Shown here one piece after another: positions 14,135 through 44,989 of a stretch of DNA of 64,000 nucleotides; position 1 is the stretch's first letter, and each line of letters opens with the position of its first letter. The stretch is taken from the NCBI RefSeq assembly GCF_001571145.1, contig NZ_BCTF01000005.1:124001-188000 (forward strand). Direction: 5' to 3'. The position numbers were made by a program, and so were the translations under genes. The notes under the pieces are model-generated. The model worked only from the letters and a program-made list of their open reading frames with translations. It made no database searches and was not told the DNA's origin. The DNA comes from Hydrogenophaga flava NBRC 102514 (GTDB lineage: Bacteria; Pseudomonadota; Gammaproteobacteria; Burkholderiales; Burkholderiaceae_C).

Positions 14135-14464
14135 ATGGCAGGCTGGTACGAACTCTCTTCGAACGACAAAGGCACGTTCTCCTTCGTCCTGAAGGCCGGC
14201 AACGGCGAGGTGATCCTGCGCAGCGAGCAGTACGACACCCAGGCGTCGGCCGAGAACGGCATCAAGTCCGTCCAGACCAACAGCCCGCAGGAGGCCCGCT
14301 ACGAGCGCAAGGACGCGTCCGACGGCCGCTGCTACTTCAACCTCAAGGCCGGCAACCACCAGGTCATCGGCACCAGCCAGATGTACAAGGACGCCGCGGG
14401 CCGCGACAACGGCATCCAATCGGTCCAGACCAACGGTCCGAGCACGACGGTCAAGAAGGCCTGA
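14135..14464 (+). CDS. YegP family protein (two DUF1508 repeats)
   Basis: The 109-residue protein consists of two copies of the DUF1508 (YegP) unit: residues about 3-50 (GWYELSSNDKGTFSFVLKAG, then GEVILRSEQYDTQASAENGI) and about 53-102 (RYERKDASDGRCYFNLKAGN, then HQVIGTSQMYKDAAGRDNGI). Each ends in xSVQTN. YegP folds as a small alpha-beta domain, and its biochemical role is unknown; tandem units are normal for the family. A strong ribosome site (AAGGAGCTGAC) precedes the ATG. Its end overlaps the convergent DUF3445 gene by 14 bases. Confidence 0.92.
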   Translation: MAGWYELSSNDKGTFSFVLKAGNGEVILRSEQYDTQASAENGIKSVQTNSPQEARYERKDASDGRCYFNLKAGNHQVIGTSQMYKDAAGRDNGIQSVQTNGPSTTVKKA

Positions 14465-15317
14465 GTTCGGCGCAGAGCCGCTCGCGCACCGCGGCCATGC
14501 CGCGGTAGGCCACCACGGCCTCGCTCATCGAGGCCAGCGCCTCGGCCAGTTCGGCCGCCCGCCCGGGCGCCACGGCCAGCACCTCCACCAGCGGCGCGAC
14601 CATCACGCGGATGAAGAACACGCCCCGCTGCAGCGCGGGCAGCGGCAGCGTGGTCTGGCGTTCGACGCGGAAGAACACCTGATCGATCAGGCGGCCTGTG
14701 GCGCCCGGTGCGTCGGCCGCGGCGAGCGCGTCCTCCCAGCGGGCGCGGCGCGTCTCGGGGTGCTGGGCCAGGTCGCCGTTGGGCGTGAGCAGCCAGACGT
14801 GGCGCAGCATCGGCGCCTGGCGAAAGGCCATGTCGACGATGCCGCGCGCGCCCGCCTGCAGCAGCGCGTTGTCGGCCACCGGGGCGTGGATGGCTGTGAA
14901 GTCCAGGCCCAGCTTCTCGGCCGGATTCCAGTTCGAGGGGAAACACACCGAGAGGAAACGCGCCCGGAAGCCGTCGCCCGGCTCGTCGTGCAGGACCACG
15001 AAGTCTTCCTGCAGGTCTTCTGCCAGGGCGCGCGCATCCGCTGCAATGCCGACACCGGTCTGCACAGCGTAGGCCTGGGCGATGGCCTGCAGCACCGCCG
15101 GGTCGGCCTGGCCGATGTGTGACAAGCTGTGTTGGGTCTGCAGCACCGCCCGCTTGTGGGCGGCGTAGACAGACGCCAGCCCGTCCCGCACGAACAGCGG
15201 CGATGGCGGCGCCTCGGTCGCGGGGCTCAGGCGCGCGAGACCCGGCCGCATGCGAAACGGGCTGGCCACGGGCCAGGGCATCCCGGCGGTGGGAGTGGTC
15301 ACTGCGGTGTCGTGCAC
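14451..15317 (-). CDS. Haem-dependent oxidative N-demethylase-like protein (DUF3445)
   Basis: This 288-residue protein matches the DUF3445 / haem-dependent oxidative N-demethylase family. Diagnostic stretches are FLSVCFPSNWNPAEKLGLDF, followed by TAIHAPVADN, and later FRVERQTTLPLP. Characterised members bind haem through a PAS-like fold and oxidise dimethylamine; others are uncharacterised. I propose the GTG start at 15317 because AAAGGAG lies at the right distance before it, whereas an ATG at 15281 lacks a ribosome site and the longer reading from 15422 adds an unrelated lead. No companion reductase or FMN subunit is adjacent. It converges on the YegP gene and is divergent from fccA, with a 143-base gap. 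Confidence 0.75.
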   Translation of the reverse strand: MHDTAVTTPTAGMPWPVASPFRMRPGLARLSPATEAPPSPLFVRDGLASVYAAHKRAVLQTQHSLSHIGQADPAVLQAIAQAYAVQTGVGIAADARALAEDLQEDFVVLHDEPGDGFRARFLSVCFPSNWNPAEKLGLDFTAIHAPVADNALLQAGARGIVDMAFRQAPMLRHVWLLTPNGDLAQHPETRRARWEDALAAADAPGATGRLIDQVFFRVERQTTLPLPALQRGVFFIRVMVAPLVEVLAVAPGRAAELAEALASMSEAVVAYRGMAAVRERLCAELRPS

Positions 15318-15460
15318 AACGGCGCTCCTTTCATCAAGACATGCGGAAATAGGCTTGAAACACCTGTTACTCAAATCCACGTCCTCTATAAGGTTATTTA
15401 AGCGCCCCGGGCCTAGCCTCACCTAGCGCAAGTCGCGCAAGACGAACAACAGGAGAAGCG

Positions 15461-15850
15461 ATGAAAACCCAAGTTGAGCACGGGAGAGGCGCCCTGTGGG
15501 TGGCTGTGGCCGCCTGCGCCGTCCTGGCCGCCTGCGGCGGCGGCAGCGGGGACGACCCCGCGGCCACGACCAAATCCAGCCCGTCCCTGTCCACCACCAA
15601 AGCCCTTTCCAGCACAGCGGCACCCGCCGCCACCACCGCGGCCAGCACCGAGGGGCGCTTGCTGGCCTCCAACTGCTTCCAGTGTCACGGCACCAACGGC
15701 ACCGGCGGGTTCGACAGCATCCGGGGCGGCGAGGCCGAGGAGATCACCGAGTTCCTCACCAAGACCGCGAGCAAAGACATCATGGCCGCGCACGCCCAGG
15801 GCTACACGCCCGCGCAGCTGCAAAAGATCATCGCCTACCTCCAGCAATGA
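15461..15850 (+). CDS. fccA: FccA-like monohaem cytochrome c, lipoprotein
   Basis: This 129-residue protein has a lipoprotein signal: hydrophobic VAVAACAVLAAC with the lipobox cysteine at residue 25, followed by GGGSG. A Ser/Thr/Ala/Pro-rich linker (about 33-63) leads to a single-haem cytochrome domain with CFQCH at 72-76. The distal region DIMAAHAQGYTPAQL carries the probable axial Met and matches the sulfide dehydrogenase cytochrome subunit pattern. It would accept electrons from the flavoprotein encoded 14 bases downstream and pass them to a periplasmic cytochrome or oxidase. Lipid anchoring is less usual than a free periplasmic FccA. A ribosome site (CAGGAGAAGCG) precedes the ATG. Confidence 0.82.
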   Translation: MKTQVEHGRGALWVAVAACAVLAACGGGSGDDPAATTKSSPSLSTTKALSSTAAPAATTAASTEGRLLASNCFQCHGTNGTGGFDSIRGGEAEEITEFLTKTASKDIMAAHAQGYTPAQLQKIIAYLQQ

Positions 15851-15864
15851 ACCGGGAGACCTCC

Positions 15865-17283
15865 ATGAACACCTTCAAGATCACGAGCGATCTCTCGCGC
15901 CGCCAATGGATGGCGGTGGCCGCGGGCGGCCTGGCCGCCGGTCTGGTCCCGCTGGCGGGTCGGGCCGATGACCAGCGCAAACCATCCAGACGACCCAACA
16001 CCTCCACGGCCCCGCTGGCCACCACCTCCATCACCGGCAAAAAGGTGGTGGTGGTGGGCGGCGGCATGGCCGGGATGACCGCGGCCAAGTACCTGCGGCT
16101 GTGGGGCGGCAAGGGCCTGGAGGTCACCCTGGTCGAGCCCGACGCGCTCTACACCTCCAGCATCATGAGCAACCTCGTGCTCAACGGCAGCCGCACAATC
16201 GCCGGCCTGCAGTACAGCCGGGAAGCCCTGGTCCGTCGCTACGGCGTCGTCTCAAAAGCCGGCAGCCTGGCGGCGATCAACCGGCAAGCCCGTTCGCTCA
16301 CGCTGTCCGACGGCAGCAGCCTGGGCTACGACCGGCTCGTGCTGGCGCCGGGCATCAGCTTCGACGACGCCTACGGCCTCACGCAGGCGGACTACGACAC
16401 ACGCACGCCCCACGCCTGGCGCGGCGGCGCCCAGACCACGCTGCTGCGCCAGCAGATCACGGCCATGCAGGACCAGGACATCTTCGTGATGACCATTCCC
16501 AAGGCGCCCTACCGCTGCCCGCCGGGGCCGTACGAACGCGCCTGCGTGGTCGCCGACCACCTCAAGACCTCCGGTCGCGGCAACTGCCAGGTGATCGTGC
16601 TCGACGAGAACGCCAACGTCCAGGCCGAGCGCCACACCTTCGAGGCCGCGTTCGCCGGGCTGCACGCCAGCGTGATCCGCTACATCCCGAACGTCACTGG
16701 TATCCAGATCGATCCGGCCACCAAGGTGGTGACCTACGTCGATGCCGTCGGTGGCACCCAGGTGATCAACGCCAAGGTGGTCAATCCAATCGTGCCGCAC
16801 CGCGCGGCGGGCAGCGAGACCGGCGGCTGGCTGGCGCAGGCCGGCCTGAACAACAGCGCCGACGGCCGCTGGGCGATGGTCAATGTGCTGAGCTACGAGT
16901 CCACGCTGGTGGGCGCCGAAGGCATCCACGTCATTGGCGACGCCTCGTCGTGCGGCCTGCCCAAGGCCGGCCACGTGGCCAACCAGGAAGCCAAGATCTG
17001 CGCCGACGCGATCGTGCGGCTGATGACGGGCGCACAGCCCGATCCGCAGCCGGTGGCCAACTCGGCCTGCTATTCGCCCATCACCGCCAGCAGCGCCTCG
17101 TGGCTCACAGCGGTCTACCAGTACGACCCGGTCGACCGGCGCATGAAGATCTCCAGCAGCGGTGGTCAGACGGTGGTCAATGGCGTGGCGGCCACCGCCA
17201 CCGAGGCCGCGTCGGTCAGCCAGGACAACTTCAAGGACATGGGCACCTGGTTCACCACCTTGATGAAAGACACCACCGCCTGA
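15865..17283 (+). CDS. fccB: Flavocytochrome c sulfide dehydrogenase, flavoprotein subunit
   Basis: The 472-residue protein has a Tat-type signal (LSRRQWMAVAAGGLAAGLVP) and an FAD-binding motif (KKVVVVGGGMAGMTAAKYLR). FccB signatures follow: MTIPKAPYRCPPGPYERA, HVIGDASSCGLPKAGHVANQ and the C-terminal CYSPIT of the FCSD flavin-binding domain. The cysteines in YRCPPG and SSCGLP are candidates for the redox-active disulfide. FccB oxidises sulfide to zero-valent sulfur in the periplasm and donates electrons to FccA. Export by Tat fits folding with FAD in the cytoplasm. It forms a two-gene operon with fccA, and no sox genes lie nearby. Longer in-frame readings starting inside fccA are not real. 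A related role with thiols or polysulfide is possible. Confidence 0.88.
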   Translation: MNTFKITSDLSRRQWMAVAAGGLAAGLVPLAGRADDQRKPSRRPNTSTAPLATTSITGKKVVVVGGGMAGMTAAKYLRLWGGKGLEVTLVEPDALYTSSIMSNLVLNGSRTIAGLQYSREALVRRYGVVSKAGSLAAINRQARSLTLSDGSSLGYDRLVLAPGISFDDAYGLTQADYDTRTPHAWRGGAQTTLLRQQITAMQDQDIFVMTIPKAPYRCPPGPYERACVVADHLKTSGRGNCQVIVLDENANVQAERHTFEAAFAGLHASVIRYIPNVTGIQIDPATKVVTYVDAVGGTQVINAKVVNPIVPHRAAGSETGGWLAQAGLNNSADGRWAMVNVLSYESTLVGAEGIHVIGDASSCGLPKAGHVANQEAKICADAIVRLMTGAQPDPQPVANSACYSPITASSASWLTAVYQYDPVDRRMKISSSGGQTVVNGVAATATEAASVSQDNFKDMGTWFTTLMKDTTA

Positions 17284-17320
17284 CGACCCAGGCACCCGCC
17301 CTGCGCGCCTCAAGCCCTCG

Positions 17321-18529
17321 TCAGCGCGACTTGGGGCTGGTGACCATGCCCTGGGTGGCGGCCCAGGCGTGGATGTCGTCGCGGCGAATGGCGGCGGCCA
17401 TCAGGCCGGGGAAGGCATCGGGCGTGCAGGCGAAGCTGGGCACGCCCAGCGCCGCGAGCTTGGCGGCCAGCGCGTGGTCGTAGCTGGGTGCGCCTTCGTC
17501 GCTGAGAGCCAGCAGGGTGATGAACTGCACCCCGCTCTCGATCAGCTCGTTGGCCCGCCGCAGCAACTGGGCCTCCACCCCGCCTTCGTACAGGTCGGAG
17601 ATCAGCACCAGAATCGCGTTGCGCGGCTCCCGGATGATGCTCTGGCAGTAGGAGACGGCGCCGTTGATGTCCGTGCCGCCGCCCAGCTGCACACCGAACA
17701 GCAGGTCGACGGGGTCGTCCAGCTGTTCGCTGAGGTCGACCACCGCGGTGTCGAACACCACCAGCCGGGTGGACACCGCCGGCAGCGAAGCCATCACGGC
17801 GCCAAAGATGCTGGAGTAAACCACCGAGGCCGCCATGGAGCCGCTCTGGTCGATGCAGAGCACCACCTCGCGCTGCGGCTTGCGCGCCTTGCGACCGTAC
17901 CCATGCAGGGTCTGTGGCACGATGGTCCGGAAGTCGGGCTGCCAATGCCGCAGGTTGGCGCGGATGGTGCGGTTCCAGTCGATCTCGTTGTGCCGTGGCC
18001 GCCGGTTGCGCTGGCTGCGATCGAGTGCGCCGCTGACGGCCGAGCGCATGGGCTCTTCGAGCCTGGCGAGCAAGGCGTCCACCACGTTGCGCACCACCAT
18101 GCGTGCGGTGTCCCGTGTCTTGGCCGGGATCACCTTCGACAGCGCAATCAGGTTGGCCACCAGATGCACATCGGGCTGCATGCTCTTGAGCATCTCGGGC
18201 TCCAGCAGCATGTCGCGCATGTTCAACCGCTCCAGCGCGTCACGCTGCATGACCTGCACGACCGAGCCGGGAAAGTACTGGCGTATGTCGCCCAGCCAGC
18301 GCGCCACGCTGGGGGACGAACCTTCTCGCCCTCCCGCACGGGACCGGGTGCCCAGTCCACCCGGCCCCGTGGGGTCGTACAGGGCCGACAGGGCGCGGTC
18401 CATCTCCCTGAGTTCGCCCGACAGCGGGCCACACGCCTGATCGGCCTCCTGCCCGAGCACCAGGCGCCAGCGGCGCAGGCGATCGGCTTCGGAGACGGGG
18501 GCCACACCGGACGGTTGGTGTTCGTTCAT
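17321..18529 (-). CDS. VWA-domain protein of a MoxR/VWA system (YehP-like)
   Basis: The 402-residue protein has a helical N-terminal half followed by a von Willebrand A domain from about residue 215. The metal-ion site is intact: LCIDQSGSMAAS gives D-x-S-x-S, GGGTDINGA gives the Thr, and LISDLYEGG gives the Asp. VWA proteins pair with MoxR ATPases to insert metals or remodel partner proteins. The start at 18529 overlaps the preceding DUF5682 stop as ATGA; a longer in-frame reading lies inside that gene. It is the last gene of the five-gene operon and corresponds to the position of yehP in the E. coli yehL-M-P-Q arrangement (from memory). No signal peptide or membrane helix is seen, so it is cytosolic. 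Confidence 0.87.
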   Translation of the reverse strand: MNEHQPSGVAPVSEADRLRRWRLVLGQEADQACGPLSGELREMDRALSALYDPTGPGGLGTRSRAGGREGSSPSVARWLGDIRQYFPGSVVQVMQRDALERLNMRDMLLEPEMLKSMQPDVHLVANLIALSKVIPAKTRDTARMVVRNVVDALLARLEEPMRSAVSGALDRSQRNRRPRHNEIDWNRTIRANLRHWQPDFRTIVPQTLHGYGRKARKPQREVVLCIDQSGSMAASVVYSSIFGAVMASLPAVSTRLVVFDTAVVDLSEQLDDPVDLLFGVQLGGGTDINGAVSYCQSIIREPRNAILVLISDLYEGGVEAQLLRRANELIESGVQFITLLALSDEGAPSYDHALAAKLAALGVPSFACTPDAFPGLMAAAIRRDDIHAWAATQGMVTSPKSR

Positions 18530-20796
18530 GCGCCGAGTCCCATCAGTTGACGCAACAGCGGCAGGGGCAGCAGCGCCCGTGCAGCATCCCATTCGCCCAG
18601 CTCGGTGGTCACCGGCCTGGCGGTCGTGCCGTGGCTGGCACGCTGCGCAAGCTCGTGCCGTTCGCTGGATTCGAACGCGCTGAAGCTGCGCCGCAGCAGA
18701 GGCAGCACACCCAGGAAGTGGTCCTCGCTGAGCGACGACAGCCATGTGTCCAGCAGCCCCCACGCCGAAGCATCGTGCAGCAGGACCGTGGCGTTGCGGT
18801 TGAGAAAGCCATCGAGCCAGGCAGCGGCCTTCGCCGGATCGGCGCCACGGGAGAGGTGCAGGGACATGGCGCTCGCGACGTCGTCGGTGCTGCTGACGCC
18901 GGCGTCGAGCAGCAGGCGCCGACAGAGGCCCTGCAGCAGCGGATGCACACCCACCATCTCGGCCAGCTGCAGCAACGCGCGCTGCCATACACGGGTCTGC
19001 TCCGCGCTGTCGCGCAGGCCTATGGCCTGGTGCGCCGCGAGCATGCTCTCCCGCAAGGCGTTCGCAGCGTCTTCGTCCAGGGCGCTCGCCGCCAGCGGCA
19101 GGCCGATCGCCGCGCGCACGATGAGGCCATCGAGCACCTGCGCCACCAGCGCCGCATCGGTGCCACGCACGTTGCCGTAACGGAACACGTTGGCCAGCGG
19201 CGGCAAGGCCGACAGCAGCTGCCCCGTGTCACCGCTCACCGCCGCCCGGTCCTGCAGCGCGCGCGTCGCGGCGTCCACCGCCGGCGCCAGATCGGCCAGC
19301 AAGGCATCGTCCACCATCCGCGCCAGCTCATCCAGCCGCTGCAAACCCGCGCAGCGGTCCACCGCCCGCGCCGACGCCGCCTGCGCAATGGTCTGTCCCC
19401 AGCGGCTGGCCTCGATGACGCGCAAGGCAAACTCCGGCTGCCACTGCAAGCGCCAGACCTCATGAAAACTTCCGCGCGCCGAGCGGCCCACGGTGGCCAC
19501 GGCACCCCAGGGGATGTCCAGCAGGTTCAGGCGGTGCAGCAACTGGCTGCGGGCGAGATCGGTGGGCTGGCGCAGATCGAGGTCGAGCGTCTTCTGCAAG
19601 GCCTCGGGCTTCAGCCGCAAGGATTTCTGGGCCCGCTCCAGATCGCGCTGCAGCGGCACCGTGGGCACGCTGGCGGGCACCTGGCCCAGGCGGTCGCCAA
19701 CCAGCAACTCGTCGCGGATGAAGCTCAGCACCGCGTCGTCGCCCATGGAGAACACGGCGCGGGTGGCTTCCTGCAACTCTTCGAGGCTGGGCGCCGGGCG
19801 ACCTCTCATGGCGGCCAGCGCTTCGGCCAGCCGGGTGGCCTCGATGAGGTGGGCCGAGGAGCAATCCAGATCCCGCTCGCGCATGAGCCGGGCGATTCGC
19901 GCCAGCCAGGCCGAGGCCCGCGCCAAGGGCAGACCCGGATGGCGCCAGAGATGTTCGTACCAGCCAGGCGAGTGGATGCCCGCGCCGTAGCCACTGGCGC
20001 GGGTGAGGTGGCGATGGCTCCACGGCACCCAGGTGGCCTGGACCTTGAGCTTGGGAAGGGCCTTGAGCAGCGCGGCATCGTCGCGCGCCTTGATGTCAGC
20101 CTGCAACCCGGCCAGGTGCCAGGCGCCACAGACCACGGCGATGCGCTCGAAGCCTTCTTTCTGTGCCGCGCGGATGCACTGGCGCATGTGCGCCTCACGC
20201 AACCGCTCGCGTTGCGCCCGATCGGCGCCGCGCGCGGGATCGCCCAGTTCCTGCCGCAACGCGACCATGGCCTCGTTGATCGCCGGAAACAGCGACCCGG
20301 CCTCGCTCCGTTCCTCGATGAGGTGGTTCCACCACGCCTCACCGTCTTCAAAGCCCGCCGCCCGGGCCAGCCAGGACAGCGGGTCGTCGTCGGCAGCCAC
20401 CGGGTCTTCTTCGGAAGGCTCTACCTCACCAGCTGCGGCCGGAGCTTCGGCGTCCGCCTCCCTGCGCGCCTTGTCCAAGCCGAACTCAATGGCGCGTGGC
20501 AGATCGATGAACCGCAGCGGAACGCCCGCCCGTGCAGCCCATTGCATGGCCTGCCACTCGGGAGAGAACTCGGCAAAGGGGTGGTAGACCGCGAACCCGG
20601 GTTCGTCGGGGCAGTAGCTCAGCAGCGCCACCGGTGGCTGCATGTCTTCGGCGATGGACAGCGACACCAGGGCATCGGCCTCGGGCGGCCCCTCGATCAG
20701 CACACAGTCCGGCTGCAAGGCATGCAGCGCCTCGCGCAGGCTGCGCGCGCAGCCGGGGCCGTGGTGGCGCACGCCGAAGTAGTGCAAGGAACTCAT
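18526..20796 (-). CDS. DUF5682 family protein of the MoxR/VWA system (YehM-like)
   Basis: This is a 756-residue cytosolic protein beginning LHYFGVRHHGPGCARSLREA. Later come CVLIEGPPEADALV and IAVVCGAWHLAGL, matching DUF5682, whose N-terminal part recalls the ChaN/TraB-type His-rich hydrolase or haem-binding folds (GxRHHGPG, EGPP, GAWH). About 500 mainly helical residues follow. Its biochemical function is not known. A TTG at 20805 is in frame, but GGAG would be only three bases away, so I favour the ATG at 20796. It starts 31 bases after the MoxR ATPase gene and overlaps the VWA gene by 4 bases. In this set it is the candidate effector or substrate-binding part; that is inference from layout only. 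Confidence 0.8.
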   Translation of the reverse strand: MSSLHYFGVRHHGPGCARSLREALHALQPDCVLIEGPPEADALVSLSIAEDMQPPVALLSYCPDEPGFAVYHPFAEFSPEWQAMQWAARAGVPLRFIDLPRAIEFGLDKARREADAEAPAAAGEVEPSEEDPVAADDDPLSWLARAAGFEDGEAWWNHLIEERSEAGSLFPAINEAMVALRQELGDPARGADRAQRERLREAHMRQCIRAAQKEGFERIAVVCGAWHLAGLQADIKARDDAALLKALPKLKVQATWVPWSHRHLTRASGYGAGIHSPGWYEHLWRHPGLPLARASAWLARIARLMRERDLDCSSAHLIEATRLAEALAAMRGRPAPSLEELQEATRAVFSMGDDAVLSFIRDELLVGDRLGQVPASVPTVPLQRDLERAQKSLRLKPEALQKTLDLDLRQPTDLARSQLLHRLNLLDIPWGAVATVGRSARGSFHEVWRLQWQPEFALRVIEASRWGQTIAQAASARAVDRCAGLQRLDELARMVDDALLADLAPAVDAATRALQDRAAVSGDTGQLLSALPPLANVFRYGNVRGTDAALVAQVLDGLIVRAAIGLPLAASALDEDAANALRESMLAAHQAIGLRDSAEQTRVWQRALLQLAEMVGVHPLLQGLCRRLLLDAGVSSTDDVASAMSLHLSRGADPAKAAAWLDGFLNRNATVLLHDASAWGLLDTWLSSLSEDHFLGVLPLLRRSFSAFESSERHELAQRASHGTTARPVTTELGEWDAARALLPLPLLRQLMGLGA

Positions 20797-20827
20797 CGTG
20801 GACAAGGTCTCCAGGGCCAGGCCGATG

Positions 20828-21934
20828 TCAACCCAGATCGCGGAAGGCCCGGTACAGGTCCTTCCAGTCGCTGCGCTCCTTGACGACGGCCTCCAGGTAT
20901 TCGTTCCAGACCACGGCGTCCTGCACCGGGTCCTTGACGATGGCCCCGATGACCCCCGAGGCCATGTCGTGCGGCCGCAGCACGCCGTCGCCGAAGTGGC
21001 CCGCCAGCGCCATCCCGTTGTTGATGACCGAAATCACCTCGGCGGTGGACAGGGTGGCGCTGGGCGACTTGACCTGGGTCTTCCCGTCCTCGGTCTTGCC
21101 GTTGCGCAGCTCGCGGAAGATCTGCACGATGCGCCGCACCTCCTTGAGCGCAGGCGGCTCCGCGGGCAACTGCAGCGCACGCCCCATGTCGGCCACACGC
21201 CGCATCACGATGCCCACCTCTTCCTCCTCGCTCGAGGGCACGGGCAGCACCACGGTGTTGAAGCGGCGCTTGAGAGCGGACGACAGCTCGTTGACGCCTT
21301 TGTCGCGGTTGTTGGCCGTGGCGATGACCGAGAAGCCACGAACCGCCTGCACCTCGGTACCCAGCTCGGGGATCGGCAGGGTCTTTTCCGACAGCACGGT
21401 GATCAGGGTGTCCTGCACATCGGCGGGAATGCGGGTGAGCTCTTCGACCCGCGCGATCTTGCCCAGGCGCATGGCGTTCATCAGAGGGCTGGGCACCAAG
21501 GCCTTTTCAGACGGGCCATGGGCCAGCAGCTGGGCGTAGTTCCAGCCATAGCGCAACTGTTCTTCGCTGGTGCCCGCCGTGCCCTGGATCAGCAGTGTGG
21601 AGTCACCGCTGATGGCCGCAGCCAGGTGCTCTGAAACCCAGGATTTCGCCGTGCCCGGCACACCATAGAGCAGCAGCCCGCGGTCGGTGGCCAGCGTGGC
21701 CACCGCCACTTCCATCAGACGCTCGTTGCCCACGTACTTGGGGCTGACTTCAAAACCATTGTCCAGTCGCCCACCCATGAGGTAGCGCACCACGCCCCAG
21801 GGCGAAAGCGCCCAGTTGGCGGGGCGGGCACGCTGGTCCTGGCGCGCCAGCTCGGCGAGTTCTTCGGCGTATTGCTGTTCGGCGTGGCGCCGCATCACGG
21901 CTTCGGACGGGGCGGAGGATGTGAGGGTGTTCAT
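20828..21934 (-). CDS. MoxR-type AAA+ ATPase (YehL-like)
   Basis: The 368-residue AAA+ protein has Walker A GVPGTAKS at 91-98, a Walker B-like strand KIARVEEL at about 159-166, sensor 1 IATANN at about 204-209, and arginine-finger candidates in LKRRFN. Walker B reads V-E-E rather than the usual D-E, a substitution worth checking against the subfamily. MoxR ATPases act as hexameric chaperones with VWA partners. The start at 21934 overlaps the DUF5691 stop as ATGA. Downstream are DUF5682 (31 bases) and the VWA gene. Together with SWIM and DUF5691 this is the YehL class of MoxR systems as I remember the classification. Confidence 0.9.
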   Translation of the reverse strand: MNTLTSSAPSEAVMRRHAEQQYAEELAELARQDQRARPANWALSPWGVVRYLMGGRLDNGFEVSPKYVGNERLMEVAVATLATDRGLLLYGVPGTAKSWVSEHLAAAISGDSTLLIQGTAGTSEEQLRYGWNYAQLLAHGPSEKALVPSPLMNAMRLGKIARVEELTRIPADVQDTLITVLSEKTLPIPELGTEVQAVRGFSVIATANNRDKGVNELSSALKRRFNTVVLPVPSSEEEEVGIVMRRVADMGRALQLPAEPPALKEVRRIVQIFRELRNGKTEDGKTQVKSPSATLSTAEVISVINNGMALAGHFGDGVLRPHDMASGVIGAIVKDPVQDAVVWNEYLEAVVKERSDWKDLYRAFRDLG

Positions 21935-23487
21935 CGTATGGTTTCCAGTGCTTCTCGTGTGTCGATGATCTGCGCCAGGGCATGCATGAGTTCGGCCATG
22001 GCTGCGGTTTCGTCGGCGCTGCGCGGCAGCGCCCTGAGGGCCGGCAATGCCGAGGCATCGACGATGCTGCAAAGATCGGGGAGGTGGTTGCGCACCACCC
22101 ACTGCTGGTGGGCGTCCTGTGCCGCCAGGCGGTCCTGGACCCAGGCCATCAGGCGGTTCGAAACCCCCGGGCTCAGGCGTGCCATGGCATTGCCGGGTTG
22201 CAACTGGCAGGCCGCCACCAGCTCAGGCAACACGGCCGCGGCCCCAGCGCCCCCCTGTTGAAGCACATGTTCCCAGCGCGCATCGCGCGCAGCGCGGGAC
22301 AACATGGGCACCAGCCGGTGGGTGTCCAGACCCTTGACCGCGTCCGGTGGCGCATGGACGAAGGCATCGGCCCAGTCGGGCTCGGGTGTGGCCAGCAGGA
22401 CCTCGAACCAGGCCCGGGTGAGCGCCTTGTTCCAGTCGCCCTTGACGCTCCAGGCCAGCAGATCCTTGGGCGCCATGCCGGTGTGTTCGGTCCACCAGCC
22501 CAGCGGAACCTGGCGGGCCAGCTGGTACAGCCACCAGGCGCGTTCACCCAGACTCTCGTGTGCGGGCTTCTTGGCCTCCACCTGATCGGCCGCCCAGTCG
22601 GCCGCAGCGGCGGCGGGGGCTTCGACAACCCAGCGCTTCTGAATCAGTCCCCTGTGCTGGGTGACCAGCGGTGCCAGCCGGGCCATGGCGCGCCGGGGGT
22701 GGGCGGCCAGGGGCAGGCGGAGCAGCAGGCTCAGCGCGGCCTGGCGCACCTCACCCCCGCGATCGGTGGTTCGAAGGCGTTCGAGCAGCGGCTCGTCCCG
22801 CAGGGAAAGCCCCACGCCCAGCGTCTGAACCAGTTCAAGGCGCTCGCGCGCCGCCAGCTCGGGCAGAACGGCGATCAGCCGCTCGCGGGCCTGGTCCGGC
22901 GCCGTGCTGCGCTCCTGCCGCAGGAAGGCACTGCGCTGCTCCAGGTTGCCTTCGAGCCACACCACCTCATCGCTCTGGCTGGTGGTCTGCACGCCAACGG
23001 CATGCTTCCAGTCCTCGCGCTGCGCTGCCAGCCAGCACCCCGTGGTGCCCAGCACCGGTGCCAGCCATGACCTCAAGGCCATGACCCGCCGACTGGCGTC
23101 GAGTGCCGTTGGCAGCAACGCTGCGGGCAGTCGCAACCCGCGCTGCGAGAGCGTGGCCAGGCACTCGCCGGCCAGCCGCACAGGCCCCTGTTGCAACACC
23201 CACTCCATCAGCGCCACAAGACGCATGTCCTCCAGCGGGGAAAGAACGTCCGGATCGGCCCCTGGTCGGGCCTGCTCGGTCACCGGCCGTCCCATGGACC
23301 CGGCCAGATGACAGAGTGCCAACACACCAGCGACGCGCAGCAAGCCGGTCGCAGGCGGGGTGTCTCCACCGATCGCCTCAGCGATCAAGGCGCCATGATC
23401 CCCCGGCCAGACGGGCCAGCCCCCTGCGTGGCGATCGGTGCCCACCAGCGCCATGGGCAGCAACGGAGCGAACACACGGTCACTCAT
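21931..23487 (-). CDS. DUF5691 family protein
   Basis: This 518-residue cytosolic, leucine- and alanine-rich, largely helical protein reads as a run of alpha-helical repeats (for example QAALSLLLRLPLAAHPRRAM followed by ARLAPLVTQ). It opens with FAPLLPMALVGTDRHAGGWP, which I associate with DUF5691. No catalytic motif is evident, and an armadillo/HEAT-like scaffold is the simplest reading. It overlaps both neighbours by ATGA, the SWIM gene upstream and the MoxR gene downstream. This implies coupled synthesis and probably a shared complex. The tryptophan-rich segment at about 300-345 (WTEHTGMAPKDLLAWSVKGD) could be a partner-binding face. Confidence 0.75.
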   Translation of the reverse strand: MSDRVFAPLLPMALVGTDRHAGGWPVWPGDHGALIAEAIGGDTPPATGLLRVAGVLALCHLAGSMGRPVTEQARPGADPDVLSPLEDMRLVALMEWVLQQGPVRLAGECLATLSQRGLRLPAALLPTALDASRRVMALRSWLAPVLGTTGCWLAAQREDWKHAVGVQTTSQSDEVVWLEGNLEQRSAFLRQERSTAPDQARERLIAVLPELAARERLELVQTLGVGLSLRDEPLLERLRTTDRGGEVRQAALSLLLRLPLAAHPRRAMARLAPLVTQHRGLIQKRWVVEAPAAAAADWAADQVEAKKPAHESLGERAWWLYQLARQVPLGWWTEHTGMAPKDLLAWSVKGDWNKALTRAWFEVLLATPEPDWADAFVHAPPDAVKGLDTHRLVPMLSRAARDARWEHVLQQGGAGAAAVLPELVAACQLQPGNAMARLSPGVSNRLMAWVQDRLAAQDAHQQWVVRNHLPDLCSIVDASALPALRALPRSADETAAMAELMHALAQIIDTREALETIR

Positions 23488-24809
23488 GTGAGCGTCCGGA
23501 CCCAGAGTGGTGCCGCCAGATCGTCACGCCAGGCGCTCATGGGCGAAAAGACCTCGCCATCCCATTCGCCTGCGAGGTGGACAGGATGCCCACCGCTGCG
23601 TGCGAGCAGTTGCCAGCCCAGCGCCTCGTCTGTGCGGACGTTCAGATCACGACCTTGCGCCACGCAGCGCCATCCCGTCGCCGTGCGCTCAAGCGTTGCG
23701 TCCCGCAACACCAGAGGGTGCGTGGAGGACCAGGGCGAGGCGGCCACGCGCCGGGCGATGCGGTCCCATTCCTGTTCCAAGGTCTCGTTGGGCCAGTGCG
23801 CCGCTCCAAGCAGCTCAGACTCGCTGCACAGCGCGCGCAAGCCCGCGGCACCGGGGAAAAAATGCAACGTCGCCTGGGCCTGGCGCCCAGCCATCCAGGC
23901 CTGCTCGAATCCACGCCCTCCGTAGGCGTGTTCCAGCAGCAGCGCGCGCCGCTGGCTGTGCTGGCCTTGCAACCACACGCGCCGCTCGACCAGCTTGGCT
24001 TCGCGCTGTTCCTGCACCACCCCCAGCACCGACCAGGCGTCTTCGACGGCGTCCCCACGCGCCAGCACACCATCCCTGTCCATGGGCCAACCCACCACCT
24101 CGCGCAAATCGGCCTGCACCTCCTCTGGCAAGCTGGTGCGGCGTTGCACGCCGTCACAGGCCAGTTGCAGCAGGCCCAGTCGGTGCATCACCTGTTCGGG
24201 CCAGTCAGCATCCTGGCGAACCCGCTCGGCCGCCTGAAGCAGCCGCTGCCCCAGACCCGGCGCCTGGCCGTCCACCATTCGGGCGGCCATGCTTCGCCAC
24301 CCCTCCAATGAATCGGCCATCACCAAGCCCAGACCATGGGCCAACTGATCGGCCATCCAACGCTGCAGCTCCTGGACCGCCCCTTCGATCCGCTCCCAGC
24401 GCTGGGTCTCGCGCAGGGCCGCGCTCTTCGGATCGGCCAGCGGCACATGGGCTTTGCGCTCTTCCCGTTCCTCTTTCTTCTTTTCCTTCTGTTCCCGGGA
24501 AGCCAGCCATTCATCCACCCAGGCGGGCCGGGCAGCCTGAAAGCGCCCCGGGTCGCTCACCCGAAGCAGCAGCAGTGCCAGCCCGTGCTTGCAGGGGAAC
24601 TTCCGGCTGGGGCAGGAGCAACGGAACGCGGGGCCCGACAAATCCACTTGCGTCTGATACGGCTTGGACCCACTGCCTTGGCACTCCCCCCAAACCGCCG
24701 CGGCATCGGCACCCAGCATGGGCCATTTGGCGGGCGCCACGAGACCACGTGCGGCCTTGACGGAGGCCTCATCGGGCGCCAGCGCGAGCACAGAAGCCGC
24801 GTCCTGCAT
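23484..24809 (-). CDS. SWIM zinc-finger protein of the MoxR/VWA system (YehQ-like)
   Basis: The 441-residue protein carries a SWIM zinc finger near the N-terminus: Cys64, Cys66, Cys73 and His75 in CSCPSRKFPCKHGLAL (C-x-C-x6-C-x-H). A charged helix follows at about 110-125 (SREQKEKKKEEREERKAHVP), then about 300 residues with no recognised domain. SWIM fingers bind DNA or mediate protein contacts. It is the first gene of the five-gene operon. I chose ATG 24809 because AAGGGGG precedes it; a longer reading to 24854 is possible. It overlaps the DUF5691 gene by ATGA. I could not find a convincing promoter in the 139-base gap before the NhaR-like gene. Confidence 0.83.
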   Translation of the reverse strand: MQDAASVLALAPDEASVKAARGLVAPAKWPMLGADAAAVWGECQGSGSKPYQTQVDLSGPAFRCSCPSRKFPCKHGLALLLLRVSDPGRFQAARPAWVDEWLASREQKEKKKEEREERKAHVPLADPKSAALRETQRWERIEGAVQELQRWMADQLAHGLGLVMADSLEGWRSMAARMVDGQAPGLGQRLLQAAERVRQDADWPEQVMHRLGLLQLACDGVQRRTSLPEEVQADLREVVGWPMDRDGVLARGDAVEDAWSVLGVVQEQREAKLVERRVWLQGQHSQRRALLLEHAYGGRGFEQAWMAGRQAQATLHFFPGAAGLRALCSESELLGAAHWPNETLEQEWDRIARRVAASPWSSTHPLVLRDATLERTATGWRCVAQGRDLNVRTDEALGWQLLARSGGHPVHLAGEWDGEVFSPMSAWRDDLAAPLWVRTLT

Positions 24810-24948
24810 CACACCCCCTTCGCCAGCCATCGGGCACAAGCCCCACATCGGCACGGATCAATCAACCGGACCCCAGAACCCAACAGCTGCTCCCCAAAAA
24901 CGTGGTGTTGCTTTGCAAAACATTCTACGGACGAGAACGGCACGGCCC

Positions 24949-43066: not shown

Positions 43067-44989
43067 ATGGACGTCATCAGCAGCTTCAGTGCCCGCTTCG
43101 AACGCACCCGCGAAGAGGAGATGTCGCTGGAGGAATATCTGGCCGAATGCAAGCGCAACCCGCTGGCCTACGCCACCCCGGCCGAGCGCATGCTCAAGGC
43201 CATCGGCGAACCGCAGATGGTCGACACGCGCAACGACCCGCGGCTCTCGCGCCTGTTTGCCAACAAGGTCATCAAGGTCTACCCGGCCTTTGCCGAGTTC
43301 TATGGCATGGAGGACTCGATCGAGCAGGTCGTGTCCTACTTCCGCCACGCCGCGCAGGGTCTGGAAGAGAAGAAGCAGATCCTCTATCTGCTCGGGCCGG
43401 TGGGCGGCGGCAAGAGTTCGATCGCCGAGCGGCTCAAGCAGCTCATGGAGCTGGTGCCTTTCTACGCCATCAAGGGCTCGCCGGTCAACGAGTCTCCACT
43501 GGGGCTGTTTGATCCGGTGGAAGACGCGCCGCTGCTGGAAGAACAGTTCGGCATCCCGCGGCGCTACCTCAACCGCATCATGAGCCCCTGGGCCGTCAAG
43601 CGGCTGGAGGAATACGGCGGCGACATCCGGCGCTTCCGCGTGGTCAAGCGCCACCCCTCGGTGCTGCGCCAGATCGCGGTCAGCAAGACCGAGCCGGGCG
43701 ACGAGAACAACCAGGACATCAGCTCTCTGGTGGGCAAGGTGGACATCCGCAAGCTGGAGACCTATGCGCAGGACGACCCCGACGCCTACAGCTACTCGGG
43801 CGGTCTGTGCCTGTCCAACCAGGGCTTGATGGAATTCGTCGAGATGTTCAAGGCACCCATCAAGGTGCTGCATCCGCTGCTGACCGCCACGCAGGAGGGC
43901 AACTTCAAGGGCACCGAAGGTTTCGGCGCCATCCCGTTCGACGGCATCGTGCTGGCGCACAGCAACGAGAGCGAGTGGAAGGCCTTCCGCAACAACAAGA
44001 ACAACGAGGCCTTCCTCGACCGCATCTACATCGTCAAGGTGCCGTACTGCCTGCGCGTGTCCGAGGAGGTGAAGATCTACGAGAAGCTGATCCGCCACTC
44101 CTCGCTCTCGCAGGCCACCTGCGCACCGGGCACGCTCAAGATGATGGCGCAGTTCTCGGTGCTCACACGCCTGAAGGAGCCGGAGAACTCGTCCCTGTAC
44201 TCCAAGATGCAGGTCTACGACGGCGAGAACCTCAAGGACACCGACCCGCGCGCCAAGAGCTACCAGGAGTACCGCGACTTCGCTGGTGTCGACGAGGGCA
44301 TGAACGGCATCTCCACGCGCTTCGCGTTCAAGATCATCTCCAAGGTCTTCAACTTCGATTCCACCGAGGTGGCCGCCAACCCGGTGCACCTGATGTATGT
44401 GCTGGAGCAGCAGATCGAGCGCGAGCAGTTCCCGCAGGAAATGGAGCAGAAGTACGTCGGCTTCATCAAGGAGCAGCTGGCGCCGCGCTACGCCGAGTTC
44501 ATCGGCAAGGAGATCCAGACCGCCTACCTGGAGAGCTATTCGGAGTACGGCCAGAACATCTTCGACCGCTACGTCACCTACGCCGACTACTGGATACAGG
44601 ACCACGAGTACCGCGACACCGACACCGGCGAGGTGTTCGACCGCCAGTCGCTCAACGCCGAGCTGGAGAAGATCGAGAAGCCCGCGGGCATCAGCAACCC
44701 CAAGGACTTCCGCAACGAAATCGTCAACTTCGTGCTGCGTGCGCGCGCCAACAACGCCGGCCACAACCCGCTGTGGACCAGCTATGAGAAGCTGCGCACG
44801 GTGATAGAGAAGAAGATGTTCAGCAACACCGAGGAGCTGCTGCCGGTGATCAGCTTCAACGCCAAGGCCAGCGCCGACGAGGCCAAGAAGCACGAGGACT
44901 TCGTCACCCGCATGGTGGCCAAGGGCTACACGCCCAAGCAGGTGCGCCTGCTGTGCGAGTGGTACCTGCGCGTGCGCAAGTCCAGCTGA
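43067..44989 (+). CDS. prkA: PrkA family serine protein kinase (YeaG)
   Basis: The 640-residue protein has an AAA-like N-terminal domain with Walker A in YLLGPVGGGKSSIAERLK, at residues about 105-122. The opening is FSARFERTREEEMSLEEYLA, and the C-terminal PrkA kinase domain includes EEVKIYEKLIRHSSLSQATC. PrkA/YeaG phosphorylates protein targets and is induced by stationary phase, nitrogen starvation and low pH in enterobacteria. Its partners here are YeaH and SpoVR, encoded next on the same strand (31- and 61-base gaps), the conserved order prkA-yeaH-spoVR. A strong AGGAGGT ribosome site precedes the ATG, and inverted repeats lie just upstream. Confidence 0.95.
   Translation: MDVISSFSARFERTREEEMSLEEYLAECKRNPLAYATPAERMLKAIGEPQMVDTRNDPRLSRLFANKVIKVYPAFAEFYGMEDSIEQVVSYFRHAAQGLEEKKQILYLLGPVGGGKSSIAERLKQLMELVPFYAIKGSPVNESPLGLFDPVEDAPLLEEQFGIPRRYLNRIMSPWAVKRLEEYGGDIRRFRVVKRHPSVLRQIAVSKTEPGDENNQDISSLVGKVDIRKLETYAQDDPDAYSYSGGLCLSNQGLMEFVEMFKAPIKVLHPLLTATQEGNFKGTEGFGAIPFDGIVLAHSNESEWKAFRNNKNNEAFLDRIYIVKVPYCLRVSEEVKIYEKLIRHSSLSQATCAPGTLKMMAQFSVLTRLKEPENSSLYSKMQVYDGENLKDTDPRAKSYQEYRDFAGVDEGMNGISTRFAFKIISKVFNFDSTEVAANPVHLMYVLEQQIEREQFPQEMEQKYVGFIKEQLAPRYAEFIGKEIQTAYLESYSEYGQNIFDRYVTYADYWIQDHEYRDTDTGEVFDRQSLNAELEKIEKPAGISNPKDFRNEIVNFVLRARANNAGHNPLWTSYEKLRTVIEKKMFSNTEELLPVISFNAKASADEAKKHEDFVTRMVAKGYTPKQVRLLCEWYLRVRKSS

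Follow-up and report, generated by a model that had tools for sequence, protein, structure and literature searches.

Pairs of a MoxR AAA+ ATPase and a vWA protein are described in the available part of PMC7159879 as capturing a peptide and remodelling a partner; the same text links one of these pairs, CoxD-CoxE, to metal-cluster insertion and describes ternary conflict systems, in which a third protein accompanies the MoxR-vWA core. For the pair RavA-ViaA, the accessible portion of PMC3893208 reports an interaction with the unlinked Nuo complex. Such pairs are hard to understand without their partner, and in the locus of Hydrogenophaga flava NBRC 102514 analysed here a candidate partner, a DUF5682 protein, is encoded in the operon itself.

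The window, i.e., the whole stretch of 64,000 nucleotides that was analysed, contains at positions 17321 to 24809 a head-to-tail set of five genes on the minus strand, for a SWIM, a DUF5691, a MoxR, a DUF5682, and a VWA protein (Table 1). Profile matches and coordinates confirm the five adjacent leftward genes and the families named for them in the original prediction. As read from the DNA, the SWIM/DUF5691 (23487-23484), DUF5691/MoxR (21934-21931), and DUF5682/VWA (18529-18526) junctions are ATGA overlaps and the MoxR/DUF5682 junction is a 31-base gap (20827-20797), just as had been claimed; four genes, all except DUF5691, also have a longer start in the list of open reading frames, and the junctions reported here follow from the ATG starts that we chose. 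Such overlaps of a start with a stop codon point to coupled translation rather than to the fixed product ratio that had been read from them. Scans for promoters and terminators found none.

Table 1. Features of the five-gene locus, in coordinates of the window
Feature	Position	Strand	Basis
SWIM zinc-finger protein, first gene of operon, 441 aa	23484..24809	-	Pfam SWIM, 25.6 bits (cut-off 19.6)
CxCPSRKxPCKH zinc-binding motif of SWIM protein, residues 64-75	24585..24620	-	Sequence; invariant columns
DUF5691 protein, 518 aa	21931..23487	-	PF18944, 360 bits
MoxR AAA+ ATPase, YehL-like, 368 aa	20828..21934	-	AAA_5, 132 bits
Walker A of MoxR, GVPGTAKS, residues 91-98	21641..21664	-	G91, P93, G94, T95, K97, S98 invariant (8/8)
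DUF5682 protein, 756 aa	18526..20796	-	PF18934, 870 bits
N-terminal alpha/beta domain of DUF5682, residues 1-262	20011..20796	-	hhalign to ChaN (PF04187)
His11, first GxxH motif, predicted active-site residue	20764..20766	-	78/79 sequences, remaining one starts later
Glu35 after strand 2 (EGPP), predicted active-site residue	20692..20694	-	78/79 sequences, remaining one starts later
His227, second GxxH motif (GAWH), predicted active-site residue	20116..20118	-	79/79 sequences
VWA protein, CoxE type, last gene, 402 aa	17321..18529	-	VWA_CoxE, 174 bits (cut-off 26.4)
MIDAS motif DQSGS of VWA protein, residues 227-231	17837..17851	-	T286 and D312 complete the motif

The five genes form a real conserved unit. 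Of the best 80 related loci, spread over many phyla, 66 hold the complete set of five in one order and on one strand, and three further loci carry SWIM and DUF5691 as a single fused open reading frame; several of the other 11 stop at a contig edge. This tally favours the branch of the window, since only the best 80 relatives were kept. A further fusion sits on a Hymenobacter plasmid. ATGA overlaps occur at the SWIM/DUF5691, DUF5691/MoxR, and DUF5682/VWA junctions in 30, 24, and 30 of the 66 syntenic loci, respectively, and at the MoxR/DUF5682 junction in just one, so that the three-of-four pattern of the window recurs across these loci; synteny and overlaps in other genera, proposed at the outset as checks, are thus both found. 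Between the five proteins, pairwise distances show correlations of 0.77 to 0.95 (64 stretches; species kinship is included in these values), and label shuffles reach at most 0.17. Within the class, 8 of 274 genomes hold DUF5682 above the cut-off, and the five with DUF5691 above the cut-off all lie inside these eight. DUF5682 stands without DUF5691 in the same stretch in 7 of the 80 loci, and DUF5691 lies elsewhere in the genome in five of the six searched genomes from this group. Within the genus, DUF5682 is found only in the genome studied here (1 of 18), and a block of some 10.5 kb has been gained or lost. Gene order, fusion, co-inheritance, and co-occurrence back the five-gene system proposed originally. 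They speak against the view that proteins of separate functions are only loosely joined in an operon, with the MoxR-VWA pair serving an unlinked client, a reading that we regard as quite improbable even though DUF5682 lacks a local MoxR-VWA pair in some cyanobacteria and metagenome-assembled genomes and RavA-ViaA, with Nuo, sets a precedent.

DUF5682 is encoded between the MoxR and VWA genes. The motifs GxRHHGPG, EGPP, and GAWH, from which DUF5682 had been suspected to be an enzyme, are present at residues 8-15, 35-38, and 224-227. AlphaFold2 (pLDDT 90.5, pTM 0.86) models an N-terminal alpha/beta domain followed by a long helical C-terminal part, and residues 2-228 match the ChaN family by profile comparison. 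Specifically, hhalign with DUF5682 as the query gives a score of 38.2 over 179 columns, with the motifs GxxH, E, RExxM/RDxxMA, and GxxH in register. The E-values of hhalign are for single comparisons, and the claim of kinship rests on decoys: in this direction 150 block-permuted ChaN profiles scored at most 28.0, the reversed profile 23.9, and 73 clusters of flanking open reading frames, some of which are probably not real genes, at most 27.2. With ChaN as the query, a direction in which no decoys were run, the score is 44.2; for reference, ChaN scores 53 with TraB and 49 with EreA. The probability that hhalign itself assigns to the ChaN match is only 55-79%. DUF5682 itself has no significant direct match to TraB (22.7) or EreA (19.5), both scores lying inside the decoy range. 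The underlying alignments cover 70 of the 80 loci, and residue counts refer to 79 sequences, four of them from the E. coli branch described below.

In the DUF5682 model, the three key residues sit at most three residues after strands 3-9, 31-34, and 218-224, and strands and motif positions would fit a parallel beta-sheet core as in PDB entries 2G5G and 3B55, a match that the whole-model Foldseek search did not give. At a threshold of E 0.001, that search of the full-length model returned nothing from the PDB, and the best 50 of its 511 rows, in which helical repeats dominate, include neither ChaN nor EreA; it says little about the N-terminal domain. Four solved-structure matches to the DUF5682 profile (E 0.043 at best) were taken as chance. 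According to the available part of PMC6254334, TIKI enzymes have 2His/2Glu residues in common, and in RRSP the residue two positions ahead of the first His is an additional Glu. DUF5682 has Val or Ile at this place in nine of nine sequences; the consensus of 21 TraB proteins (Gt.H) likewise lacks the Glu, which is consequently not common to the whole superfamily. Taken together, the N-terminal domain of DUF5682 very probably belongs to the TIKI/TraB/EreA/ChaN superfamily as a distant member, set apart by its five-gene context, its long helical C-terminal half, and the missing Glu. The relation to ChaN is a new result of this analysis; in the literature searched, DUF5682 is not named.

Both GxxH histidines and the Glu are invariant. 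The view of DUF5682 as the likely enzyme is supported, with a putative hydrolase activity. Homology to ChaN does not by itself imply activity, since the Pfam name of ChaN is that of a haem-binding protein (Cofac_haem_bdg), and superfamily members are not all hydrolases. DUF5682 may instead be a metal- or haem-binding client, with the invariant His and Glu residues as ligands and the MoxR-VWA pair either inserting its metal or cofactor or acting as a chaperone in its maturation. The closest profile relative, ChaN rather than TraB or EreA, fits this alternative, as does a VWA protein of the type found in CoxD-CoxE with its link to metal clusters; GxxH, E, and GxxH, however, are catalytic positions in TIKI enzymes, and we consider the client role possible but rather doubtful. 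Our estimates for the rival explanations are not mutually exclusive.

The MoxR protein combines its AAA_5 match with the motifs of MoxR AAA+ ATPases; E164-E165, N208, and R223-R224, which we take to be the Walker B region, sensor, and arginine-finger residues, are invariant in all eight aligned sequences. Its nearest solved relatives are midasin AAA domains, and matches to MadB (NCBIfam, 53.5 bits, cut-off 475) and GvpN (27.5, cut-off 266.8) were dismissed as general MoxR similarity. In a comparison limited to YehL and RavA, it shares 41.7% of its residues with E. coli YehL across 350 columns (E 2e-77); RavA-ViaA is likewise a MoxR-VWA pair, but RavA matches over 40 columns only (E 0.17), and ViaA and the VWA protein match at E 0.001. 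The VWA protein has the features of the CoxE type, with MIDAS residues D227, S229, S231, T286, and D312 invariant in seven of seven sequences; a profile search of solved structures gave no match at E 0.01. With their motifs intact, the two proteins resemble CoxD-CoxE and other MoxR-vWA pairs, but the intervening gene encodes DUF5682, which is not a known client of such pairs. The SWIM protein exceeds the profile cut-off and carries the CxC...CxH signature, its ligands C64, C66, C73, and H75 being invariant in all 36 aligned sequences (36 of the 71 SWIM open reading frames found). DUF5691, folded alone, is a predicted all-helical solenoid resembling HEAT/ARM proteins (AlphaFold2 pLDDT 93.0); its best Foldseek matches are ARM/HEAT proteins, at E 0.0016 at best and with low TM-scores.

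On this basis, we consider it moderately probable that the products of the five genes make up a single ATP-driven remodelling machine around a hydrolase-like protein, and we infer that they would form a complex. A ring formed by MoxR would, together with the VWA protein of CoxE type, act on DUF5682 and spend ATP on loading, opening, or switching its active site. CoxD-CoxE serving CO dehydrogenase would be the model for such a motor, and the Mg-chelatase pair, which serves its third subunit, provides a parallel. DUF5691, as a solenoid, might serve as the scaffold (a part perhaps taken by DUF4132 in the E. coli branch), and the SWIM protein might guide the machine to a target, be it nucleic acid or protein; the bond attacked would be intracellular, of the peptide, ester, or a similar kind. 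More tentatively, the system could be a widespread ATP-gated intracellular hydrolase of the TIKI type, with the MoxR-VWA pair as the motor that switches a peptidase or esterase akin to ChaN, held on a helical solenoid and aimed by the SWIM protein; such a machine for regulated hydrolysis would differ from Lon, Clp, and FtsH as well as from known chelatase-like chaperones, and YehI-YehL-YehM-YehP-YehQ would be its branch in E. coli K-12. The kinship of DUF5682 supplies three residues to change and a reaction class to assay.

The original prediction equated the set with E. coli yehL-yehM-yehP-yehQ, which holds as kinship but not as one-to-one correspondence. The E. coli locus has the order MoxR-DUF5682-VWA-SWIM, with a DUF4132 gene (yehI) upstream; it shares with the window the order of MoxR, DUF5682, and VWA, an adjoining SWIM gene, and a large protein encoded upstream. 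It differs in that DUF4132 replaces DUF5691, which is not among the annotated genes of the locus, and in that the SWIM gene is last, not first. YehQ has no significant BLASTP similarity to the SWIM protein of the window and no match to the SWIM profile made here, so that the two are recognisably alike only in the zinc motif, and the DUF5682 proteins are 27% identical. YehI gave no HEAT match. DUF4132 lies upstream of MoxR in four loci (L002, L093, L094, and L190); in L092 and L192, both close to a contig end, it was not found. This branch comprises few loci, the SWIM match in L094 being under the Pfam cut-off and L093 ending within VWA. Judging from these comparisons, yehL-yehM-yehP-yehQ is a distant second branch of the system. 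In the literature searched, at least two of yehL, yehM, yehP, yehQ, and DUF5691 are named together only in a genome note and a strain resource. The branch is almost universal in E. coli, K-12 included, and its uncharacterised y-genes are therefore directly testable.

In K-12, yehF (WGR) and the pseudogene yehH, which we take to be molR, lie upstream of yehI-yehQ, and together with the SWIM zinc finger they raise the idea of a DNA-damage or genome-maintenance machine, guided to DNA by SWIM and, in the E. coli branch, by WGR/MolR/DUF4132 relatives, with DUF5682 processing a protein there. The available part of PMC11039860 lists molR among LexA-regulated genes, that of PMC11002266 has yehF in its SOS gene table (transcript values up to 1.14, units unstated here), and in Deinococcus depletion of DdrO strongly upregulates an operon with a DUF4132 gene (PMC8533742). 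The accessible text of the latter, however, makes no mention of MoxR, VWA, or SWIM, between the end of yehF and the downstream yehL lie about 7 kb, and neither the K-12 stretch nor the window has an exact LexA box (CTGTN8ACAG). A single LexA-like site with two mismatches lies inside yehM, as expected by chance. We consider this role unlikely; it names a function and is compatible with the remodelling machine.

A conflict role, also named originally, would make the system an anti-phage or similar device in which the MoxR-VWA pair sets a threshold and DUF5682 is the toxic effector. The window shares a MoxR-vWA core and a third protein with the ternary conflict systems, but the VMAP, iSTAND, beta-propeller, and effector-associated domains of the latter, as given in the available part of PMC7159879, are not above the cut-off in the five proteins. 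The MoxR protein stays below the cut-offs for bpMoxR (23.6 bits, cut-off 27) and nSTAND6 (16.7 bits, cut-off 27.7). PADLOC returned no known anti-phage model, only IetA P-loop stretches matching (E 0.0013 and 0.0041); flanking clusters seen in at least four loci include no defence family, and no relative was confirmed in viral contigs. The sole phage record with DUF5682, an unverified faecal scaffold, was not counted as phage because its other open reading frames look bacterial by eye. Moreover, yehL-yehQ is matched in 5301 of 5426 E. coli genomes, in 5162 of them over at least 80% of its length. Phage defence is thus not supported by these comparisons, and the conflict reading as a whole appears very unlikely. 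On its side, the distribution in the genus and the class is patchy and the block described above was gained or lost, genes that by eye resemble toxin-antitoxin or methylase genes lie between the members in some loci, and the copy on an Iodobacter mobilizable plasmid adjoins a type I restriction system. As a side observation on the plasmid collection, several of its matching records are chromosome-sized.

The original prediction had described five adjacent minus-strand genes joined by three ATGA junctions and one junction of 31 bases, and this arrangement was borne out, with the genes lying head to tail.

Genes of the five-member operon in the window and their domain assignments
Gene	Position	Strand	Assignment
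SWIM	24809-23484	minus	Pfam SWIM, modestly above cut-off
DUF5691	23487-21931	minus	Pfam, far above cut-off
MoxR	21934-20828	minus	Pfam, far above cut-off
DUF5682	20796-18526	minus	Pfam, far above cut-off
VWA	18529-17321	minus	Pfam, far above cut-off

The collection genome_contigs (one genome per species, 84,980 species) was scanned using an alignment of nine DUF5682 proteins as the query. The scan yielded at least 593 pattern matches, at least 552 of them encoding relatives, and the best 80 were taken as loci; according to their record titles, these belong to Burkholderiales, other Gammaproteobacteria, Cyanobacteria, Chloroflexi, Bacteroidota, Planctomycetes, Verrucomicrobia, and further groups. 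Profiles of the five proteins recovered the order SWIM-DUF5691-MoxR-DUF5682-VWA on one strand in 66 of these best 80 loci, and at three others (L037, L055, and L085) SWIM and DUF5691 form a single ORF of 1092, 977, and 994 residues, respectively, a fusion also present on a Hymenobacter plasmid (1009 residues). The remaining 11 loci have at least one member absent from the stretch, some of them running into a contig edge; in others, e.g., the cyanobacterial loci L042, L044, and L058, DUF5682 is separated from the other members. DUF5691 is missing from the stretch at 7 of the 80 loci, and a search of six of the corresponding genomes (L067 left out) located it elsewhere in five (L042, L049, L051, L057, and L058), in two cases as short pieces at contig ends, while the genome-wide search did not find it in that of L044. 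Across 64 stretches with all five members at stricter limits, distances correlated between protein pairs at 0.77 to 0.95, compared to at most 0.17 after label permutation; species kinship by itself would raise the former values as well. The widest clusters of flanking ORFs were a sensor-kinase/response-regulator group (10 loci) and an ABC ATPase group (9 loci), both at varying distances, and most other printed clusters were limited to near relatives, e.g., Comamonas-Delftia or Variovorax (names assigned by eye).

A second branch is found in E. coli K-12, where yehL encodes the MoxR protein, yehM DUF5682, yehP the VWA protein, and yehQ the SWIM protein; upstream of them lie yehI (DUF4132) and a small gene, yehK. 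The yehL-yehQ stretch was matched in 5301 of 5426 complete E. coli genomes, in 5162 of them over at least 80%. The order DUF4132-MoxR-DUF5682-VWA recurs in two genomes of the window's class (L093 and L094) and on an Iodobacter plasmid (L190); after VWA comes a SWIM-annotated gene in L190 and, in L094, an ORF that matches SWIM below cut-off, whereas L093 stops within VWA. Of three DUF4132 proteins scanned for HEAT_2, that of L093 scored above cut-off and that of L094 just below, and YehI gave no match. The model of DUF5691 is an all-helical solenoid (pLDDT 93), its best Foldseek matches being ARM/HEAT proteins (E 0.0016, low TM-score). Given the HEAT_2 match in the DUF4132 protein of L093 and the predicted DUF5691 solenoid, a helical solenoid may accompany the core in both branches.

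The E. coli neighborhood also bears on a possible role of the system in DNA damage or genome maintenance, since in K-12 (L002 6475-20945) yehF (WGR), the pseudogene yehH, which we take to be molR, and yehI precede yehL-yehQ. Passages of the respective papers place molR among LexA-regulated genes (PMC11039860), include yehF in an SOS gene table (PMC11002266), and describe a Deinococcus operon containing a DUF4132 gene as induced upon DdrO depletion (PMC8533742). However, neither the K-12 stretch nor the window contains an exact LexA box of the form CTGTN8ACAG, and we regard such a role as unlikely. The literature searched yielded no mention of DUF5682 and, among the papers listed, none of PF18934 (DUF5682) or PF18944 (DUF5691), while two papers name at least two of yehL, yehM, yehP, yehQ, and DUF5691; the YehL subfamily is named in PMC3893208, whose passages on it give no function.

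The AlphaFold2 model of DUF5682 (71 sequences, pLDDT 90.5) features an α/β N-domain followed by a long C-terminal portion that is helical. Among 79 DUF5682 sequences, 75 from the window's branch and 4 from the other, His227, Asp98, Arg200, Glu201, Met204, and Gly224 are present in all, and His11 and Glu35 in 78, the exception (L063) having a later start; His12 is replaced by Leu in one. In the model, His11, Glu35, and His227 lie at most three positions past strands 3-9, 31-34, and 218-224. The N-domain was aligned by hhalign with ChaN (PF04187) over 179 columns (score 38.2, probability 55%), in a register pairing GxRH with GExH, EGP with E, DLP with NLP, RExxM with RDxxMA, and GAWH with GxGH. 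With DUF5682 as the query, 150 block-permuted ChaN profiles scored 14.9 on average and 28.0 at most, reversed ChaN 23.9, 73 flanking-ORF clusters at most 27.2, and the other four operon proteins 17 to 19. ChaN as the query scored 44.2 (79%) against DUF5682, the decoys referring to the opposite direction only, and 53 and 49 against TraB and EreA, two families of its superfamily that score only 20 against each other. Scores of DUF5682 versus TraB (22.7) and EreA (19.5) were not significant, and the full-length protein gave no Foldseek match in the PDB at E 0.001 or better. We consider DUF5682 very probably homologous to ChaN; that it is an active hydrolase appears about equally probable either way.

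The nucleotide-binding residues of the MoxR protein are retained, as are the MIDAS residues of the VWA protein. According to PMC7159879, MoxR-vWA pairs grip a peptide of their partner via the VWA domain and alter the partner's conformation with ATP. The obvious candidate partner of the pair here is DUF5682, as its gene lies between those of MoxR and VWA in all 69 complete loci, fusions counted. Hydrolysis by TIKI enzymes is ascribed to 2His/2Glu residues in a passage of PMC6254334, and DUF5682 has three of these four positions. Together, the retained motor residues, the gene position, and the TIKI-type positions suggest that MoxR-VWA might work as a motor powered by ATP, loading or opening a ChaN-like DUF5682 hydrolase, for which the solenoid protein would be a scaffold and the SWIM zinc protein could provide targeting; beyond the homology, hydrolase activity, its control by ATP, and targeting are each inferred.

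Within the window's genus, DUF5682 was found in its own genome only (1 of 18). Among 274 genomes of the class, DUF5682 matched 10 (8 above cut-off), and DUF5691 likewise 10 (5 above cut-off), all 5 being among the 8, a nesting expected by chance about five times in a billion by arithmetic disregarding kinship. When the LysR neighborhood was compared in five relatives, one genome alone (G015) aligned on both sides; there, window positions 14455 and 24949 are 21 bases apart and about 10.5 kb (14456-24948) are absent at this site, indicating that the operon and the neighbor genes at 14456-17283 were gained or lost as a block. This adjoining region (14451-15422 and 15461-17283) holds a gene resembling those of haem-dependent oxidative N-demethylases (HODM_asu-like, 99 bits); encoded on the strand opposite to it are a cytochrome c and a protein similar to flavocytochrome c sulfide dehydrogenase; no clusters of such neighbors were among those printed for other loci. 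In Hydrogenophaga sp. A37 (L012), the operon likewise adjoins this LysR gene, and the sulfide-dehydrogenase-like pair is absent.

No relative was confirmed on viral contigs, and the plasmid collection gave a match in 31 records, some of chromosome size. An unverified phage record (L192, MT835988.1) carries MoxR-DUF5682-VWA together with ORFs of bacterial look and is probably a bacterial scaffold under a wrong label. By eye, operon members are separated by a DNA methylase-like gene and a neighbor in L039 (7838-9855), an AbrB-PIN pair in L016 (12390-13009), and an AbiEii-like protein gene in L024 (9409-10428); on the Iodobacter plasmid, an annotated type I restriction system (L190 15092-18749) lies beside the operon. 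Elsewhere in the window, positions 43067-44989 encode a PrkA serine kinase with an AAA domain, and the ORFs after it may be YeaH and SpoVR, the usual partners of PrkA.
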